A DNA stretch of 64,000 bases, taken from NCBI RefSeq assembly GCF_029953285.1, contig NZ_JASAOI010000023.1, positions 1 through 64,000 on the forward strand. Reading direction: 5' to 3'. The DNA comes from Yinghuangia seranimata. GTDB taxonomy: Bacteria; Actinomycetota; Actinomycetes; Streptomycetales; Streptomycetaceae. Shown piece by piece: positions 1 to 8,844 of the stretch. The translations under genes and the position numbers were made by a program. The stretch's first letter is position 1. Every line of letters begins with the position of its first letter. A model generated the notes under the pieces. The model saw nothing but the letters and a program-made list of their open reading frames with translations. It searched no databases and was not told the origin of the DNA.

Positions 1-533
1 CACGCGATGTAGGCGCTCACGCTGGAGAAGCCGTACTCGTGCCCCGCCATGTGGACCTCGCTCGCCCAGGCCATGTCGACGCCGGGCATCCCGGGGTCCG
101 CCGCGAGCGCGGCGTCCCGGGTCCACGCGGGCACGCCGGAGGGGTCGACGGTCTTCTCGCGGTAGTCCAGTTCGGTCCGCAGGACGGCCAGCGCGAACTC
201 GGGGTCGAGCTGCCCGGCGAAGATGAACCGGACCATGAAGTCCGGGTCGACGAAGCGCGGCGTCGGCTCGTACGGAGACCGCGCCCACTCCCACAGGGCC
301 TCGCGGCCCGCCTCGGTCATCCGGTACACCTTGGCGTCCGGGCCGCCCTCGCGCGCGTCCACGTCGTACTCGACCCAGCCGCGCTCGACGAGCTTGGCCA
401 GCCGCCGGTAGATCTGCGGCAGCTGGACGCCGTAGCCGATGTACTTCAGCGGGCCTTCCATCCATTTGCGCAGGTCGTAACCCGAGAACCGGCGCAGTGT
501 CAGCATCCCGAGGATGACGAAGTCGAGTTGCAT
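1..533 (-). CDS. PadR-family transcriptional regulator (3' end outside window)
   Basis: The protein starts MQLDFVILGMLTLRRFSGYD and has the N-terminal winged helix of PadR regulators (residues about 1-85), with a basic recognition segment and a wing containing GGPDAKVYRMTEAGREALW. An alpha-helical C-terminal part of the Vir_C type follows (LDPEFALAVLRTELDYREK) and runs off the left edge, so about 177 codons are visible. The start ATG has an AGAAGG ribosome-binding site. It is the last visible gene of a minus-strand group downstream of the transporter and sulfatase genes, with a 117-nt gap. PadR proteins are usually ligand-sensing repressors of adjacent genes, so it may control this cluster; that link is inference. 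Confidence 0.85.
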   Translation of the reverse strand, partial: MQLDFVILGMLTLRRFSGYDLRKWMEGPLKYIGYGVQLPQIYRRLAKLVERGWVEYDVDAREGGPDAKVYRMTEAGREALWEWARSPYEPTPRFVDPDFMVRFIFAGQLDPEFALAVLRTELDYREKTVDPSGVPAWTRDAALAADPGMPGVDMAWASEVHMAGHEYGFSSVSAYIA

Positions 534-650
534 GGCCTTCTCTTTGTCGATGCCGGGCACGCCTGCCCCGGACCGGTGCGTTCCGGCCCGGGACAAGCAT
601 GTCGGGTCGCGGCGCGCGGCGCCCCCCGCTCCGGCATTGTGTCGCCGGGC

Positions 651-3479
651 TCACTGCGCGGGCGCGCCGCCCGCCCGCGCCACGTCGCTGCGGGCGATGG
701 CGCGTTCGTCGGTGCCCAGGTAGCTCGCCACCACCTTCGGGTCGCTCCGGACGGCGTCCGGCGCGCCCTCGGCGATCACGCGCCCCGCCTCCAGGCAGTA
801 CACCCGGTCGCTGATGCCCATGATCAACGGCATGTCGTGCTCGATCACCAGCAGCGAAGCGCCCAGTTCGCGGCGGATCTCCTGGATGAGCGGGCCGAAC
901 GCCTCGGTCTCGCGCTGCGCGACGCCCGCAGTCGGCTCGTCCAGGCACAGCAGCCGCGCGTCCAGGGCCAGCAGCCCGGCCAGTTCGACGATGCGGCGGG
1001 TGCCCGTCGACAGGTCGGCGACGAACGCGTCCGCGTACCGGCCCAGGCCCAGGAAGTCGATCAGGTCGTGCGCCTCGGCCTTCTTCGCGCGCTCCCGCCT
1101 GACCGACGGCGGCAGCCGCAGCGCGGACGACAGCAGGCCCGTGCGGCCGCGCGCCTCCAGCGCCACCTGCACGGTCTCCGTGACCGTCAGCTCCGGGAAC
1201 AGCGTCGCCGCCTGGAACGTCCGGCCGAGCCCCCGAGCGGCACGCCGCGCCGGAGCCGCGCGCGACACGTCCTCGCCGAACAGCTCGACGCGTCCCGTGG
1301 CCGGCACGAACCCGCCGACCGCGTTCATCAGCGTCGACTTGCCCGCGCCGTTGGTGCCGATGAGTCCGACGATCTCGTTCGGCCGCACCTCCACGGACAC
1401 CCCGTCGACCGCGCTCACCCCGCCGAACCGCACCCGCACGTTCGACGCCGCGAGCACCGGCCGGCCCTCGGGCAGCGGCTCGCGTTCCGAGCGGGCGCGC
1501 GGCTTCGGCAGCACGGCGTCCGACCTCGAAGGCGCCGGACCCATGCGGCCCTCGGCCCACGCCAGCAGCCCGTCGCGCGCCGCATAGCCGATCTGCACCA
1601 GGCCGCCGGGGAAGTACAGCAGCAGGATCAGCAGGCCGACGCTGGACGCCAGCAACGGCACCAGCGAGTTGCCCGGGAACAGCGCGGGCAGGCCGATCAC
1701 CCACAGCGAGCCGAGCACCGGCCCCGACGTCGACCCGAGACCGCCGATCACGACGACCGACACGAGCATCAGCGAGTCCTCGCTGCGGAAGTACGCGTCG
1801 CCGTACGGCACGGTCTGCAGCGCCCCCGCCAGCAGCGCGCCGCCCAACCCGGCCACACCGCCTGCCAGCGCGAACGCGCGCAGCTTCACCCGCGTCGCGC
1901 CGACCGTGTACGCCGCGGCGGTCGCCGGGTTGTCGCGCACCCCGATCGTGGTCCGGCCCACCCCGGTGCGCCGCAGCCGCCCGGTCACCGCCAGCACGGC
2001 CACCAGCACGGCCAGCACCACGTAGTAGTAGGCGCGCTGCGACGACACGTCGAGGCCGAACACGTCGCTCCGCGGGAACGAGGCGGTGATCCGCGTGGGA
2101 CTGTCGTGGAAGACCTCCTGGCGGTACACCCACTGCTCGCACGCCACCGCGAACCCGAGCGTGCTCACCGCGAGCAGCAGCCCGCGTACCCGCAGCGCCC
2201 CGACGCCGATCACCGCCGCCAGCAGCGCCGTGACCACCGCCGCCACCGCGACCGCGGTCGGGAACGTCAGACGGTCGACGACCAGCACCCGGCCGCCGCC
2301 GACGTCGAGCCGCAGACCGCGCGACAGCGCCGCCGCCGTCATCGCCCCGATACCGGCGAACGCCATCTGCCCCAAGGACAGTTGCCCCGCCCAGCCGGTG
2401 AGCACCGTCACCGACGCCGCGCAGATCGCGTACGCCGCGATCACCGTGTACAGCAGGTGCCGCGACGGCTGCGTGACCGCCAACGGCACCACGATCCCGA
2501 CCAGCAGCAGCGCCAGCAGCCCGAACCGCTCCAGGTTCCGCACCCACCACAGCCCGCGCAGCCGCTCCGGCACCGGCCGGACCTTCGGCGCGAACGAGAA
2601 CGACGCCGTCTCCGCCGCCCCGCCGCGCGCCGCGAACACCGCGGCCAGGATCAGCCCGAAGGCCACCAGGTCGGTGAGCCCCGGCTGGTCGAGCCAGTTG
2701 AACTGCACCACCGCGTCGAGCAGCCCGAGCCCGACCCCGGCGACCAGCGCCGTCCGGAACGACCGCATGCGGGCGATCACCGCCGCGGCCAGCGCCCGCA
2801 TCAGCGTGGTCATGCCCAGCACCGCCGGCGCGGTCACCGACCCGTTGCGGGACGAGATGAGGATCAGGCACACCGTGGCGACCAGCCCCGCGATCGTCCA
2901 CACCGCGGTCGAGACCGCCTTGGGGCTGATGCCGTTCAGCCGCGCGAGCTCGGGGTTGTCGGCCGACGCCGCGACGGTCCTGCCCAGCACCGTCCGCCCC
3001 AGGAACCAGCCGAGCCCGGCCGCCGCCAGCGGGACGACGACCAGGATCGCCGCCTGCGTGGCGGTCACCTGGACGCCCGCCGGCCGCCACACGGACGACG
3101 ACCACACGGGATACGAACGCGCGCCGTCCACCTCCGGATAGGAGGCGACGACCACGAGCGCGAGCTGGGCGACGCCTATGGTGGCGACCAGCAGGATGAC
3201 GCGCGGCGCCACGAACAGCCGCCGCACCACCACGAGTTCGACCAGCGCCCCGAACGCCGAGCCCGCGGCCAGCGCAATCGGCAGCGCGATCCAGTACGGC
3301 ACCCCGTAGCGCACGGCCAGCAGCGCGAACAGCGCCGAGCCGACGAGGCCCATGTTCGCCACCGCGAAGTTGACCACGCGCGTGGACCGGTGGACGAGCA
3401 CCACGCCCATCGCGAGGAGACCGACGACCAGGCCGTCGACGACACCGTCGAACGCCAGCTGGCGGGTGAGGGTGATCAC
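651..3479 (-). CDS. LivH-LivM-LivG fusion: branched-chain amino acid-type ABC permease/permease/ATPase
   Basis: One 942-residue chain carries three normally separate subunits of a LIV-type (HAAT) importer. Residues 1 to about 290 are a LivH-like permease, about 310-640 a LivM-like permease (motif TGWAGQLSLGQMAFAGIGA), and about 675-930 a LivG-like ATPase. The ATPase has Walker A GTNGAGKST near residue 703, a signature LSTGT near 821, Walker B LLCLDEPTAG near 845 and the switch His in VIEHDM, so it looks catalytically complete. The start is GTG, one base after the stop of the MFS-LivF gene, implying translational coupling. No LivJ/K binding protein is visible nearby, so the substrate is unknown; the neighbouring sulfatase suggests something other than an amino acid. 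Fused LIV subunits are known in actinobacteria. Confidence 0.9.
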   Translation of the reverse strand: MITLTRQLAFDGVVDGLVVGLLAMGVVLVHRSTRVVNFAVANMGLVGSALFALLAVRYGVPYWIALPIALAAGSAFGALVELVVVRRLFVAPRVILLVATIGVAQLALVVVASYPEVDGARSYPVWSSSVWRPAGVQVTATQAAILVVVPLAAAGLGWFLGRTVLGRTVAASADNPELARLNGISPKAVSTAVWTIAGLVATVCLILISSRNGSVTAPAVLGMTTLMRALAAAVIARMRSFRTALVAGVGLGLLDAVVQFNWLDQPGLTDLVAFGLILAAVFAARGGAAETASFSFAPKVRPVPERLRGLWWVRNLERFGLLALLLVGIVVPLAVTQPSRHLLYTVIAAYAICAASVTVLTGWAGQLSLGQMAFAGIGAMTAAALSRGLRLDVGGGRVLVVDRLTFPTAVAVAAVVTALLAAVIGVGALRVRGLLLAVSTLGFAVACEQWVYRQEVFHDSPTRITASFPRSDVFGLDVSSQRAYYYVVLAVLVAVLAVTGRLRRTGVGRTTIGVRDNPATAAAYTVGATRVKLRAFALAGGVAGLGGALLAGALQTVPYGDAYFRSEDSLMLVSVVVIGGLGSTSGPVLGSLWVIGLPALFPGNSLVPLLASSVGLLILLLYFPGGLVQIGYAARDGLLAWAEGRMGPAPSRSDAVLPKPRARSEREPLPEGRPVLAASNVRVRFGGVSAVDGVSVEVRPNEIVGLIGTNGAGKSTLMNAVGGFVPATGRVELFGEDVSRAAPARRAARGLGRTFQAATLFPELTVTETVQVALEARGRTGLLSSALRLPPSVRRERAKKAEAHDLIDFLGLGRYADAFVADLSTGTRRIVELAGLLALDARLLCLDEPTAGVAQRETEAFGPLIQEIRRELGASLLVIEHDMPLIMGISDRVYCLEAGRVIAEGAPDAVRSDPKVVASYLGTDERAIARSDVARAGGAPAQ

Positions 3480-3480
3480 G

Positions 3481-5622
3481 TCAGCCCCCGTCTCTGCCGA
3501 GGAAGACCGCGCGGGCGAGGTCGTCGCGTTCGGTCAGTTCGCGGGCGTCGCCGGTGAACCGGACCTGCCCCTTCTCCAGGAAGACCGCGCGGTCGGCGAT
3601 CGACAGCGCGACGTTCAGCGACTGCTCGACGACGACCATCGTCAGACCGTCGGCTTTCAGGCGCTCGACGACCGCCAGCAGGTCCTGCACCACCACCGGC
3701 GCGAGACCGAGCGGCCCCGGCCGGGCCGCGAGGTCCGGGAACACGTCCAGCACGTACGCGAGCCGCCCGTCGCGGTGCGCCTGGTCCCGGTCGCGCAGCT
3801 GGAACGCCGCCATCTCCAGGTTCTCCCGCACCGTCATGCCCGGGAAGACGCCCTTCCCGCCGGCCAGCAGGCGGACGCCCATCCGGCCGCGCCGCTCGGG
3901 CGCGACGTACGTGATCGTCTTGCCGTTCAGCCGCACCACGCCGCGCGACGGCGTGCCCAGCCCGCAGACCGCCTTGAGGATCGTCGACTTGCCGGCGCCG
4001 TTGGTGCCCAGCAGCGCCAGCACCTCGCCGCGCCGGACCTCGAACCCGACGCCGAACAGCACCTGCACGTTGCCGTACGCGAAGTCCACGTCGTGCACCT
4101 GCAATACCGGCACGTGCTCCGGGTCCCGCGCCTGCCGGTCGCGCTCGGCCAGCTCCTCGCGCAGCTCCGCGACCACCAGCGACAGGTCGTGCTTGATGAA
4201 CCCCGAGCTGCGCACCAGCATCAGGCCGCCCACGAGTGTGGACGGCACGCCGATCACCAGCGCCGCCACGCGCGGGTCGTACGAGTCGAGGATCAGCGCC
4301 GACAGCAGCGACCCGCCCGTCGCGCCGACGAAGAAGATGTACACCGCGGCCAACGCCGCGCCCAGGCCGCGCAGCCGGTACGGCGACACCGACTGCATCA
4401 CCGGCCCGACCATCGCGAACGCGGCCGACAGCAGGATCAGCGGCAGCATCTGCACGACGGCGAACGCCGGCGCGTTCGGCATGAGCCACTGCACCGGGAT
4501 CAGCACCGCCACCGGCAGGATCAGCAGGCCGACCAGCCGCAGCGCCCGCGCCGGGTCGGTGCGGTAGAGCCGGTCGTAGTACGGGCCGACGAACGGCAGC
4601 ACCAGCAGCACACCGGCTCCGCCCAGCGTGCCGTACACGCCGCGCTCGAACGTGCCGAGCCCGAAGTGGTCCTCCAGCCACAGGTTCGTCAGCACGGGAC
4701 CGGTGAACAGCCCGAACCCGAGCGCGGCGAACGCCAGCACCACTGTGCGCGTCGTACGGATCCGCATCAGCCGCGCGAACGCCGCCTCGACCGACACGGG
4801 CGCGGGGGCGTCCTGCGCCACGACCTCGCCGAGCACCGCCCGCATCTCCTGCCGCCCCCGCGGCGGTTCGGGCAGCCGGAACGCGAACAGCGCCACCAGC
4901 GCGGTCGGCACGCCGAGCACGAAGAACGCCCAGCGCCAGCCGTCGTCGCCGCCCGCGAGCGCCGCGATCCCGCCGACCGCCAGCGGGCTCAGCGTCGCCG
5001 CGATCCGCCCCGTCGCCGCGTTCGCCGCGGCGAGCCGGCCGCGCACGCCGATCGGGTACGTGTCGGCGTTCAGCGACCCGTGCACCGGCAGGTTGCTCGA
5101 TTTCGCGACACCGACCCCGAGCCGGGCCAGGAACATCAGGAACACGTTGGCGGCCAGCCCGCACGCGACGACGAACGCCGAGAACGCCAGACCCGCCCAG
5201 CCCGCGACCCGGCCGCGCCGCGACCGGTCCGCCAGCCAGCCCATCGGCAGCGCCCCGAGCACGATGAACGCGCCCGACGCCGACGACAGGAACACGATCG
5301 CGCCGTCGCTCATCCCGAACGCGTCGCGGATGTCCGGCGCCAGCACACCCAGCGTCGCGGTCTCCAGCTCGTCGAACGCCGACAGCAGCGTCAGCGTCAC
5401 GAACGTCGCCGCCCCGCCGGCCGCGAGGCCCTCGCGCAGGGTCAGGGCCTGACCGCCGACGCCGGGGAGCAGCTCGTCCGCGAACAGGACGTCCCGTTCC
5501 GCGGCGGCCTGCCGGGTGCGCTCCGCCTCGGCGTCCAGCAGGCCTGCGGCCAGCCGCGCCGCGCCCGGCTCCGACCCGACCTGACCCCCCGGTTCTCCGG
5601 CGACCGGCTCCGCCGCGGTCAC
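3481..5622 (-). CDS. MFS permease fused to a LivF-type ABC ATPase domain lacking signature and Walker B
   Basis: Residues about 60-485 are a 12-helix major facilitator permease (loop GWLADRSRRGRVAG after helix 2). From residue 504 a LivF-like ATPase domain starts (VLQVHDVDFAYG), with Walker A GTNGAGKST near 539-547. Normally the helical region is followed by LSGGQ and Walker B with its catalytic Glu. Here FPDLAARPGP runs straight into LGLAPVVVQDLL, which in LivF proteins lies just after Walker B, so about 30 residues are missing in frame (junction near 3717). The switch region MVVVEQSLNVAL is present. As written, this domain should not hydrolyse ATP or complement LivG. The GTG start overlaps the sulfatase stop by four bases (GTGA). 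It could be a true deletion, a regulatory remnant or an assembly artefact. Confidence 0.88.
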   Translation of the reverse strand: MTAAEPVAGEPGGQVGSEPGAARLAAGLLDAEAERTRQAAAERDVLFADELLPGVGGQALTLREGLAAGGAATFVTLTLLSAFDELETATLGVLAPDIRDAFGMSDGAIVFLSSASGAFIVLGALPMGWLADRSRRGRVAGWAGLAFSAFVVACGLAANVFLMFLARLGVGVAKSSNLPVHGSLNADTYPIGVRGRLAAANAATGRIAATLSPLAVGGIAALAGGDDGWRWAFFVLGVPTALVALFAFRLPEPPRGRQEMRAVLGEVVAQDAPAPVSVEAAFARLMRIRTTRTVVLAFAALGFGLFTGPVLTNLWLEDHFGLGTFERGVYGTLGGAGVLLVLPFVGPYYDRLYRTDPARALRLVGLLILPVAVLIPVQWLMPNAPAFAVVQMLPLILLSAAFAMVGPVMQSVSPYRLRGLGAALAAVYIFFVGATGGSLLSALILDSYDPRVAALVIGVPSTLVGGLMLVRSSGFIKHDLSLVVAELREELAERDRQARDPEHVPVLQVHDVDFAYGNVQVLFGVGFEVRRGEVLALLGTNGAGKSTILKAVCGLGTPSRGVVRLNGKTITYVAPERRGRMGVRLLAGGKGVFPGMTVRENLEMAAFQLRDRDQAHRDGRLAYVLDVFPDLAARPGPLGLAPVVVQDLLAVVERLKADGLTMVVVEQSLNVALSIADRAVFLEKGQVRFTGDARELTERDDLARAVFLGRDGG

Positions 5623-7457
5623 GCCCGGACCCCGTGCGCGGCGACGTCCCCGGCCGGGTCCGCGTCCGGGTCCGTGTCGAGCGCCGCGAGGGCGTCCGCG
5701 ACCGCGCGCAGTGCCGTCGCCGGCAGCAGGCCGCCGGCCAGCGCGGCCAACTGCAGCAGCGACGTGTCGCCCACCATCTTCGCCACGCCGCCGTCGACCA
5801 GGCGGCCCAGGCCCAGTTCGCGCAGCACCGCCTCGGCCGCCGCGTCCGCGAACAGCTCGCGGATCGGGGCGTGCACGCTGCGCGGGCCGTCGGGGAACTC
5901 CGCGGGGTCGACCGGCGCGGCGCCCGCGGCGGTCTCGGCCTCCTCGCGTTGTTTCCGCACGAGCAAGTGCGCCTCGGTCGCCGGGCCCCGCGCGGGCAGG
6001 CCCAGGCGCTCGTACTGCTCGGCGGGCGCGTCGGCGGCGCGCATCGCTTCGACGAGCATGCTGATCATGCGCAGTTCGAGGCTGTCGTCCACCAGCGGGT
6101 CGAGCTGGTCCGGGTCCGTCGCCAGGTCGAACAGCAGCGTGCCGTGCGGCGCGGGGGAGATCGCGAAACCCGGGACCTTGAGGACGGGCGCGCCCTTCGT
6201 GAACGCGAACGCGCCGCCGGGGACGAACTCGGCCTCCGCCAGCTCACGCGGCTGGAACCGCGCCCGCATGTGCGTGGGCATCAGGGTGTACTGCGCCAGC
6301 GGCACGTTCGCCGCGTCCGCACACGCCCGCATATACACGTAGCGGCCGTCCGTGACCGAGACGTGGCCGCCGAACGCGCCGAACAGGCCCGCCTCGCGCA
6401 CCGGGGTGTCGTCGGCGATCGTCTCCCGCAGCGCGACGCCCGTCATGTCCGGCGTGCGCCCCACACCGAAGAACTCCAGCAGCGTGGGCGCCAGGTCGAC
6501 GGTCTGCACGAGCGACGCGCGGCGCTCCCCGCGCACCCGGCTTCGCGGGTCCCATACGAACAGCGGGGTGTGGATGGTCTCGTCGTACCACGGCATCACG
6601 GCCTTGCCCCACCAACCGTGCTCGCCCAGCAGGAAGCCGTGGTCGGTGCAGACGATCAGCATCGTGTCGTCCCACAGGCCGTGCTCGTCCATCGCGTCGA
6701 GGACGCGGCCGAGGTTGCGGTCGCACATCGACAGCAGCGCGGCGTACTCGTAGCGCACGTGCGCGACCTGCTCGTCGGTCTCGCGCACCATGCGGTAGTC
6801 CGGCCAGTCGTACTGCGGCCCGTCGTAGCCGTGCTCGTACAGCTCCTTGTAATGCTCCTGCGAGAAGAACGGCTCGTGCGGATCGAACGTCTCGATCTGC
6901 ACGAACCAGCCGTCCTCGGCCTTGTTGGTCTCGATGAAGTGCAGCCCGGCGTCGAAGGTCAGCGTCTGTGGCTGGTCCTCCTCGCGCGTCATGTAGCGCC
7001 GGTTGATCCAGTCCTGCCGCCAGGCCTCGCCGCGCAGCGTCTTGAGGCTGTCCGGGACCTCCGGGTCGGCGACGTGCCCCTTCCACGGGTCGCCCTCCTG
7101 GCCGCGGAAGAACTCGTAGGTGCGGTACCGGTTGTGGTACGTCGCGCCGCCGTCCTCCCAGTAGTGCTGGTGGTCCGTGACCAGGTGCGTGTAGACGCCC
7201 GCGTCGGTGAGCATCTCCGGGCACGAGTCGTCGAAGGGCTCCAGCGGCCCCCATCCGCGGTGCAGGAAGTTGTGGCGCCCGGTGTGCAGCTCCCGGCGGG
7301 CCGGCATGCACGGCATGCTCCCGGCGTAGCAGTTCTCGAACACCGCCGTCCGCTCCGCCAGCCGCGCGAAGTTCGGGGCGTGGACCCAGTCCGCCGCTCC
7401 GTACGGAGGAAGGTACCTGCGGTTGAGGGAATCGAACATGACCATGACGGCCTTCAT
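5619..7457 (-). CDS. Sulfatase (alkaline phosphatase superfamily, formylglycine type)
   Basis: This 612-residue protein has the sulfatase fold: N-terminal metal site MKAVMVMFDSLNRRYLPPYG, the formylglycine signature C-x-P-x-R as CMPARRELHTGR (residues about 70-81), and the second metal site TDHGFLLGEHGWWGK. The Cys would be converted to formylglycine for hydrolysis of a sulfate ester, or of a phosphonate/phosphate monoester as in some relatives. No signal peptide is evident with this start, which suggests a cytoplasmic enzyme acting after uptake. The ATG at 7457 is preferred over an upstream ATG because GGAGTG precedes it by a proper distance. It overlaps the MFS-LivF gene, so import and desulfation are probably co-expressed. 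The substrate is unknown. Confidence 0.92.
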   Translation of the reverse strand: MKAVMVMFDSLNRRYLPPYGAADWVHAPNFARLAERTAVFENCYAGSMPCMPARRELHTGRHNFLHRGWGPLEPFDDSCPEMLTDAGVYTHLVTDHQHYWEDGGATYHNRYRTYEFFRGQEGDPWKGHVADPEVPDSLKTLRGEAWRQDWINRRYMTREEDQPQTLTFDAGLHFIETNKAEDGWFVQIETFDPHEPFFSQEHYKELYEHGYDGPQYDWPDYRMVRETDEQVAHVRYEYAALLSMCDRNLGRVLDAMDEHGLWDDTMLIVCTDHGFLLGEHGWWGKAVMPWYDETIHTPLFVWDPRSRVRGERRASLVQTVDLAPTLLEFFGVGRTPDMTGVALRETIADDTPVREAGLFGAFGGHVSVTDGRYVYMRACADAANVPLAQYTLMPTHMRARFQPRELAEAEFVPGGAFAFTKGAPVLKVPGFAISPAPHGTLLFDLATDPDQLDPLVDDSLELRMISMLVEAMRAADAPAEQYERLGLPARGPATEAHLLVRKQREEAETAAGAAPVDPAEFPDGPRSVHAPIRELFADAAAEAVLRELGLGRLVDGGVAKMVGDTSLLQLAALAGGLLPATALRAVADALAALDTDPDADPAGDVAAHGVRA

Positions 7458-7542
7458 CGCCACTCCTGCCCGGTCGCGCGAGGCCAGGGCCCTGTCGGGC
7501 CCTGGCTCGTATGAACCCCAGAACATACTCATCGCGACTTGA

Positions 7543-7571: not shown

Positions 7572-8678
7572 CTAGCGCACTGAGTGTTCGTGGACGAGAC
7601 TGACATGCACCGCGTCCTCGCCGGGCACCGCGCGCTCCAGGAGCGCGATGCCGCGCCCGACGTCCTCCAGGCCTACGTGGACGCCGCGCAGCGTGCGGGC
7701 GATCGACGGCCTGTCGGCCAGCAGCTGGACGGCCTGCTCCATGGACCCCGGCGTCGACCCCGCGCAGCCGTGCACGGTCAGGGACTTCAGCGACACGAGG
7801 TCGCTGAGCAGGTTCTCGACCGGCCGGAAGTGCTTGAGGCCGGCCAGCGCGACCCGGCCGCGGAAGGCCGCCAGTTGCAGGGCGGTGTTCACGGCGGCGG
7901 GCACCGGGGTCAGGTCCATGACCACGGACGCCATCCGGCCGCCCGTCAGCTCCCCGACGCGCTCGGTCACGTCCTCCGCGTCCACGTCCACGACCGCGTG
8001 CGCGCCCAGCTCGAGCGCCGTCGCCAGGCGGGTCCCGTCCGCGCCCGTACCGGTCACGATCACCTGCGACGCCCCCTGCGCGAGCGCCGCCGCCGCGCAC
8101 AGCAGGCCCTGGTGGCCGGGGCCCTGCACCACGACCCGGTCCCCGGTCCGCACACCCGCCGCGGCGACCCAGTTGAGGGCGTTGGCCAGCGGCTCGAACA
8201 CCGTCAGCTCGGCGGCGGTGAGCCCGTCCGGCGCCTTCATCAGGTGCGTCGTGGGCAGCAGCCGCATGAACTCGCCGTAGCCGCCCCACAGTCCGCCGTC
8301 GTGGTCGGCGCCCATCGTGTAGCCGTACAGCTGGAGGTTGGCGCACAGCCCGCCCGGGCCGCCGAGGCAGGCGCGGCACCGTCCGCAGGTCACGATCTCG
8401 TCGACGCACACCCGGTCGCCCTCGGCCACACCCCAGTTGGCGGCGGCCTCCGCGGTGATCGCGTGCACCACGCCGACGATCTCGTGCCCGGGGACGACAT
8501 CGGCGACCTCGCCCGGGACATGGCGCTGCCCGTGCAGCTGCATGGCGTCGCTGCCGCAGAGCCCCACCGCCTCGACCCTCAGCACCGCGCCGCCGGGCGG
8601 CGGGTCCGGGACGGCGAACTCCCGTATCTCGTACGTACCGTCGCCGGGGAACACCGCCGCGCGGGCGTGCTGGACCAT
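7572..8678 (-). CDS. Zinc-dependent alcohol dehydrogenase (threonine dehydrogenase-like MDR)
   Basis: A 368-residue medium-chain dehydrogenase/reductase. The catalytic zinc site is marked by VGLCGSD (residues about 37-43) and GHEIVGVV. The structural zinc lobe has four cysteines in CGRCRACLGGPGGLC. The nucleotide-binding half includes VVQGPGHQGLLCAAAALAQG. The start at 8678 has a clear GGAGG site in TTCGGAGGCCCGCAATG; longer upstream starts are spurious. It precedes the sulfatase operon on the same strand, separated by 114 nt with a possible operator, and may oxidise an alcohol released by the sulfatase (inference). The substrate cannot be read from sequence. Confidence 0.92.
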   Translation of the reverse strand: MVQHARAAVFPGDGTYEIREFAVPDPPPGGAVLRVEAVGLCGSDAMQLHGQRHVPGEVADVVPGHEIVGVVHAITAEAAANWGVAEGDRVCVDEIVTCGRCRACLGGPGGLCANLQLYGYTMGADHDGGLWGGYGEFMRLLPTTHLMKAPDGLTAAELTVFEPLANALNWVAAAGVRTGDRVVVQGPGHQGLLCAAAALAQGASQVIVTGTGADGTRLATALELGAHAVVDVDAEDVTERVGELTGGRMASVVMDLTPVPAAVNTALQLAAFRGRVALAGLKHFRPVENLLSDLVSLKSLTVHGCAGSTPGSMEQAVQLLADRPSIARTLRGVHVGLEDVGRGIALLERAVPGEDAVHVSLVHEHSVR

Positions 8679-8844
8679 TGCGGGCCTCCGAAGGGGTCGA
8701 GGGTGCGGTCCCGCGGCGGACCCGTGCGAGTCCGCGACCGCGCCGGCGCGCCCGGCGGCCGGCCCGGCGACGGTAGCCCGGCGAACCGCAAGGATCAACG
8801 CCATCCTTCGGATATTCGGCTTTGATGTTCGGAAATATGAACGG

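Follow-up and report, generated by a model that had tools for sequence, protein, structure and literature searches.

Carriers of the MFS and importers of the ABC type are regarded as two distinct solutions to the problem of powering transport. In the stretch of DNA analysed here (the window: 64,000 nt from the soil actinobacterium Yinghuangia seranimata, C1:1–64000, which thus begins at a contig end), a single gene joins an MFS carrier to an ABC ATPase; it overlaps a sulfatase gene on one side and all but touches, on the other, a gene for further parts of a LIV-type importer. The locus raises the question of what such a transporter would carry, how it would be supplied with substrate and energy, and whether the sulfatase belongs to it. 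An earlier note on this DNA had seen in it a hybrid transporter for a sulfate ester, possibly with the MFS domain in place of a binding protein.

Organisation of the locus

The genes in question lie on the minus strand and are transcribed in the order zinc dehydrogenase, sulfatase, MFS–LivF, LivH–LivM–LivG, and PadR regulator, all five with Pfam domain matches. The run from the sulfatase to LivH–LivM–LivG and its touching or overlapping ends are as the earlier note described them: the sulfatase and the fusion gene share four bases (GTGA, 5619–5622), and a single base separates the stop of MFS–LivF from the start of LivH–LivM–LivG. The fusion (3481..5622, 713 aa) matches MFS_1 at 79–431 (E 9.8e-33) and ABC_tran at 524–616 (E 1.6e-15). 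The following chain (651..3479, 942 aa) carries two LivH/LivM-type permease domains (BPD_transp_2 in two stretches, E 1.3e-47), ABC_tran at 692–851, and BCA_ABC_TP_C, and Pfam thus confirms the domain order that had been proposed for both polypeptides. The LivG part is complete, with the signature LSTGT, the Walker B motif LLCLDEP, and the switch His, and its ABC_tran match spans the profile length. A chance origin of the open frames of the unit is ruled out by the Pfam matches and by conservation.

The two outer genes are less closely attached. The PadR-family regulator (3..596, minus strand; PF03551, E 1.4e-08) is open at the contig end. The zinc-binding alcohol-dehydrogenase-like gene (7572..8804, minus strand; PF08240 and PF00107) precedes the sulfatase gene by 114 bp on the same strand, and its membership in the sulfatase/transporter unit is uncertain.

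With LIV-I/HAAT importers (LivFGHMJ), the locus shares the two BPD_transp_2 stretches, a LivG with the BCA_ABC_TP_C tail, and a LivF-type ATPase. It differs in that LivH, LivM, and LivG form one chain, while LivF bears an N-terminal MFS carrier and, in the window copy, a deletion described below.

The MFS domain

The MFS domain (4207..5439, minus strand; residues about 62–472) has 12 membrane helices in the AlphaFold prediction and, with its MFS_1 match and motif A, has the features of that superfamily. It is present in all 60 aligned fusion ORFs, where D84 is found in 59, E85 in 55, D132 in 58, and R136, D187, and R230 in 60 each; the Asp of motif A is conserved in 58 of them and that of TM1 in 59. 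By these features, the domain looks like a working carrier and not like a relic.

The best Foldseek matches of the domain are DgoT (6e9n) and SPNS2, and the best PDB sequence match of the MFS part is 6e8j (HnSpns). The 12-helix MFS fold is shared with these anion/H+ symporters and SPNS proteins, with TM-scores of 0.63–0.79 by target length in the best ten matches, whereas sequence identity in those ten is 17–19%, and the window domain, unlike them, is fused to an ABC ATPase. Among NCBIfam models, D-galactonate and aromatic-acid carriers score best, with a top score of 56 against a cut-off of 395 bits.

It is conceivable that the complex offers a second path through its MFS domain: an intact conjugate would be imported by the LIV part with ATP, and the MFS domain would let out the product of its hydrolysis (an aglycone, sulfate, or a sugar acid), which would couple the two movements. 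The conserved Asp residues, the likeness to the organic-anion/H+ symporter DgoT and to SPNS proteins, the kind of substrate named by the weak NCBIfam matches, and the hydrolase N-termini read, which show no obvious signal peptide, are all in keeping with such an arrangement. However, the best of those NCBIfam matches falls far below its cut-off, and we regard a second path as unlikely.

Fusions of MFS carriers to unrelated modules are already catalogued, as the entry for the Sensor Kinase-MFS Fusion family (2.A.1.34) in PMC3924187 indicates; the partner there is, by the name of the family, a sensor kinase, whereas here it is an ABC ATPase. In the open-licence papers searched, no MFS–LivF fusion was found described.

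Distribution of the fusion

MFS–LivF fusions were found in Embleya, Yinghuangia, Frankia, Parafrankia, Pseudofrankia, and Acidimicrobiia. They occur in 2 of 293 genomes of the order (E up to 1e-150) and in 18 of 396 of the phylum (E up to 1e-120), the genome of the window being included in both counts, and in 76 of 296 sampled genomes of the class to which genome G663 belongs (E up to 1e-130). The 60 aligned ORFs include two duplicates, L179 (same contig as L017) and L180 (same contig as L013), which were dropped, leaving 58 distinct loci. Neighbours were counted at the 47 loci that are flanked on either side by 5 kb or more; the other 11, with short flanks, are the window itself, L018, L020, L027, L033, L037, L039, L042, L093, L185, and L187. 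At all 47, a LivHMG-like gene was found no farther than 8 kb from the fusion, which places the pairing of the two genes beyond chance.

In a divergent class, the same parts are split in another way: LivH and LivM form one chain, and MFS, LivF, and LivG form the other (three proteins). Such MFS–LivF–LivG chains of about 1000 residues, with LivHM separate, are encoded at L171:7522–10572, L185:3736–6639, and L186:8128–11151. The fusion architecture is thus real, recurrent, and conserved, and its presence at 58 distinct loci and in 76 genomes of the class of G663, split in two ways, suggests that the two halves work together.

Two placements deserve a remark. Locus L030 clusters in the tree with MAGs named Acidimicrobiia. 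Locus L020 (CAMDCC010000291.1, 1140–3332) encodes a 63%-identical MFS–LivF on a 3.8-kb contig binned as Bifidobacterium breve; it is probably a mis-binned contig of another actinobacterium.

The binding protein

No LivJ/K gene was seen next to the unit in the 64,000-nt window, which starts at the contig end, and the absence claimed by the earlier note therefore stands for the window; it does not stand for the genome. The genome contains five MFS–LivF genes and five genes for LivJ-like lipoproteins. Four fusions and four lipoprotein genes form adjacent pairs, the latter beside LivHMG. The fifth LivJ-like gene is an orphan on the 15.5-kb contig C93, where it is directly flanked by two sulfatase genes, with a gene for the formylglycine-generating enzyme (FGE) about 4 kb away (L105: 22–4895 and 7494–8456). 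One of these C93 sulfatases has a C-terminal HEAT-repeat match.

In the fusion tree, the window copy falls into a clade with the copies on contigs C22 and C28 and two Embleya copies (support 1.0), and in the binding-protein tree (FastTree), the C93 gene falls into the clade of the partners of these fusions (support 0.965); placement within the two clades has low support (0.043 and 0.245). From the gene counts and the matching tree positions, the C93 lipoprotein is likely the partner of the window transporter. The C93 lipoprotein itself has no Pfam match, and four homologues 43–52% identical to it match Peripla_BP_6, the domain that LivJ-like lipoproteins encoded beside relatives share with LIV-I/HAAT systems. 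A comparison of the contig ends of C1 and C93 revealed no overlap that would link the two physically. In the cluster of the C22 paralogue, a cytochrome P450 gene follows directly after the binding-protein gene (L091:13572–14843).

The proposal of an MFS domain that stands in for the binding protein in selecting the substrate, or else of a complex that works as an exporter, drew on the lack of a binding-protein gene beside the unit in the window, and six of the 47 relatives' loci likewise have no LivJ-like gene within 8 kb (L021, L029, L031, L163, L184, and L186). Against this, the other 41 do have a LivJ-like gene at that distance, and the genome holds five such genes for five fusions, the orphan included; the proposal is disfavoured for the family and appears to us highly improbable. 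The LivHMG-like gene at all 47 loci and the 41 LivJ-like neighbours favour a binding-protein-dependent importer instead.

A deletion in the LivF domain

The earlier note had counted all ABC parts of a LIV importer in the two polypeptides, and it is here that its description does not hold. The LivF nucleotide-binding domain of the window copy (3484..4110, minus strand) is incomplete: Walker A is present, while the ABC signature and Walker B are absent. An alignment of the DNA with three paralogues and Embleya places an in-frame deletion at 3712..3717 (minus strand; about residues 636–637), and it removes exactly 96 bp, or 32 residues, comprising the signature and Walker B with its catalytic glutamate. 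In the protein alignment, the segment is present in all four paralogues of the same genome. When judged by the aligned segment and a wider pattern, both motifs are kept in 59 of the 60 ORFs (57 other distinct loci), the window copy alone being without the segment; a strict motif pattern recovers the signature in 51 and Walker B in 57.

Each ATP site of an ABC dimer needs the signature motif of the partner domain to be complete, and a deletion in LivF alone would thus damage both sites. As written, the ABC motor of the window copy would be broken; either this is so, or the assembly is in error. The structure predictions of two proteins differ: block means of AlphaFold pLDDT are 24–47 for the window LivF domain and 49–88 for residues 501–720 of an intact Embleya homologue predicted with the same 26 homologues.

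The rest of the gene appears to be under constraint. Among positions that are otherwise invariant, the window copy is changed at 3 of 105 in the remaining LivF and at 1 of 146 in the MFS domain. In the same test on 16 relatives, 14 show 0–2 (LivF) and 0–3 (MFS) changes, L106 shows 3 and 10, and L094 shows 22 and 23. The rest of the window fusion gene, judged by this measure, does not look decayed. The deletion may be real and recent, or it may be an assembly error, and if it is real, the window copy may do nothing. No clear undamaged orthologue was found within the genus, the fusions of two other genomes being 61–71% identical.

The removal of the signature and Walker B and the lack of a confident fold for the LivF domain in AlphaFold would accord with a duplicate in decay that no longer serves any function; this fits poorly with the constraint on the rest of the gene and with the other genes of the unit, which are open and tightly packed. 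Such decay is a possibility to be taken seriously, though we do not expect it. A bolder reading takes the family for one obligate ABC and MFS machine with a shared ATPase, in which the ABC half would import a sugar conjugate and the MFS half would move the product or a second substrate; the window copy, with its LivF motor cut, would then serve as an MFS carrier only, having switched from ATP-driven to gradient-driven transport. We hold this to be quite unlikely.

The sulfatase

The window sulfatase (5619..7457, minus strand, 612 aa) matches PF00884 (E 2.7e-31) and PF16347, as well as sulfatases in the PDB by sequence. The core motif of type I formylglycine sulfatases is C-x-P-x-R, and the enzyme contains it as CMPARRELHTG. 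The genome also encodes the maturation enzyme: PF03781 exceeds its cut-off on C93 and C73, and there is a short match on C37. The sulfatase therefore has the marks of type I. At E 1e-10, the sole match of the enzyme in the genome is itself.

The start at 7457 is preferable to an ATG farther upstream, at 7532, since AGGAG stands just 5′ of the ATG at 7457, and homologues in genomes G004 and G626 start at the same residue. Read from this start, the N-terminus shows no signal peptide, and the first core strand begins at once. A sulfatase of this kind would require that the sulfate ester enter the cell first.

Window-type sulfatases with 60–64% identity were found in four other genomes (G004, G353, G626, and G600), for which the phylum search lists no fusion. 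Three of them lie at uptake loci, beside an oligopeptide-type ABC system in G004, a sugar-type ABC system in G353, and an MFS carrier in G626, and in all three, an FGE gene occurs within the same 19 kb. The window resembles these loci in its sulfatase and in having a transporter nearby, whereas its transporter is an MFS–LivF fusion. That the same enzyme recurs with changing transporters fits a sulfate ester that is taken up whole and then cleaved in the cytoplasm. In G600, no transporter was recognised near the sulfatase, and a PadR gene lies beside it, as one also does in G626. The PadR regulators that adjoin window-type sulfatases at L159:10678–11322 and L161:8121–8720 (44% and 38% identical to the window PadR, respectively), in genomes with no fusion listed, suggest a PadR–sulfatase pair.

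Hydrolases near the fusion and a possible substrate

Within the fusion family, a sulfatase within 8 kb is uncommon. It was found at 11 of the 47 loci, eight of them from one Acidimicrobiia clade; at L166 and L168, the match is weaker and some kb away from the fusion. In the clade, 8 of 11 loci have sulfatases of the DSLNR type, one or two each, whose genes run divergently to the fusion, and among the three without, L027 is cut at the contig end. The sulfatases of L021–L030, at 6.6–10 kb, read CMPARHDILCG, with Cys where the window enzyme has Thr before Gly.

A second association comes from genome G663, where the fusion and LivHMG share one stretch with genes for a binding protein and three sulfatases and with a weak match to GH20. 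One of the sulfatases is of the window type (37% identity), one is of the type of C93b (39%), and one is C93a-like (30% over 151 residues); no FGE was seen in the cluster. Across the 296 genomes of the class, many of them fragmented, 26 have both a fusion and a sulfatase, and with the best few candidates per genome scored, the two lie within 10 kb in 2 of the 26, where a rough estimate puts the expected number at about 0.3; G892, one of the two, is not independent of the already counted locus L030. With 11 of 47 loci and 2 of 26 genomes, the sulfatase is ruled out as a general partner of the fusion family. A functional link between sulfatase and transporter, as the earlier note had supposed, is nevertheless likely, given an N-terminus that shows no signal peptide, the Acidimicrobiia clade, the G663 cluster, and the window-type sulfatases beside other transporters in three of four genomes, and a sulfate ester is a plausible substrate for the window copy.

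The neighbours are often glycosidases. Pfam found one nearby at 15 of 17 loci, the loci and their neighbours having been picked by eye, with none of the Acidimicrobiia loci L021–L043 among them. GH3 is represented at L012, L013, L014, L019, L091, and L131, GH2 at L012, L015, L106, L170, and L181, GH78 at L017 and L093, GH1 at L016, and GH20 at L092 (strong) and L157 (weak, just over the cut-off). At L094 and L182, the single neighbour tested in each case is not a glycosidase. The strong GH20 match is a hexosaminidase-type gene that follows the C28 paralogue cluster (L092:1687–3288), and together with the weak one in G663, it hints at amino-sugar conjugates as substrate.

An ordinary amino-acid LIV importer that stands beside a sulfatase by chance would explain why LivG, LivF, and the permease domains score as branched-chain parts, though all below the NCBIfam equivalog cut-offs. 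It would not account for the glycosidase and sulfatase neighbours in several lineages, nor for a LivJ-like gene between sulfatases. The earlier note had named clusters without the sulfatase, or with a dedicated binding protein and an amino-acid substrate, as speaking against its proposal. This applies in part: at 36 of the 47 loci, the 8 kb around the fusion contain no sulfatase gene, and at 41 they contain one for a binding protein, but the neighbours checked are mostly glycosidases and not amino-acid genes. The neighbour genes thus do not favour an amino-acid substrate, and we rate the chance arrangement as very unlikely.

A proposed mechanism

On balance, it is probable that the family consists of LIV-type importers that depend on a binding protein, contain an MFS domain of their own, and feed hydrolases, and that the window copy represents a sulfate-ester branch. 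The window locus would derive from a family of LIV-type (HAAT) ABC importers in which LivF is joined to an MFS carrier and LivH, LivM, and LivG make up a single chain; such an importer would come with a LivJ-like lipoprotein and, in many cases, with hydrolases acting on conjugated sugars. These genes and domains are what was observed in the family; their joint working and substrate, we infer, would be as follows. A sulfated sugar or another sulfate ester, delivered by the C93 binding protein, would enter through the LivHM pore at the expense of ATP, and sulfatases that owe their maturation to FGE would release the sulfate in the cytoplasm. The MFS domain would act as a conserved accessory carrier and not as a substitute for the binding protein. 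In the window copy, the 96-bp deletion would take away the LivF signature, on which the ATP site of LivG relies, as well as the Walker B motif of LivF, and so disable the motor, in which case the gene may have been lost recently or a paralogue may lend its LivF, unless the assembly is wrong.

Finally, the fusion family differs from LIV-I/HAAT importers in that its neighbours are often glycosidases or sulfatases, which calls for caution in annotation, as proteins that resemble branched-chain amino-acid transporters by score may serve the uptake of sugar conjugates.
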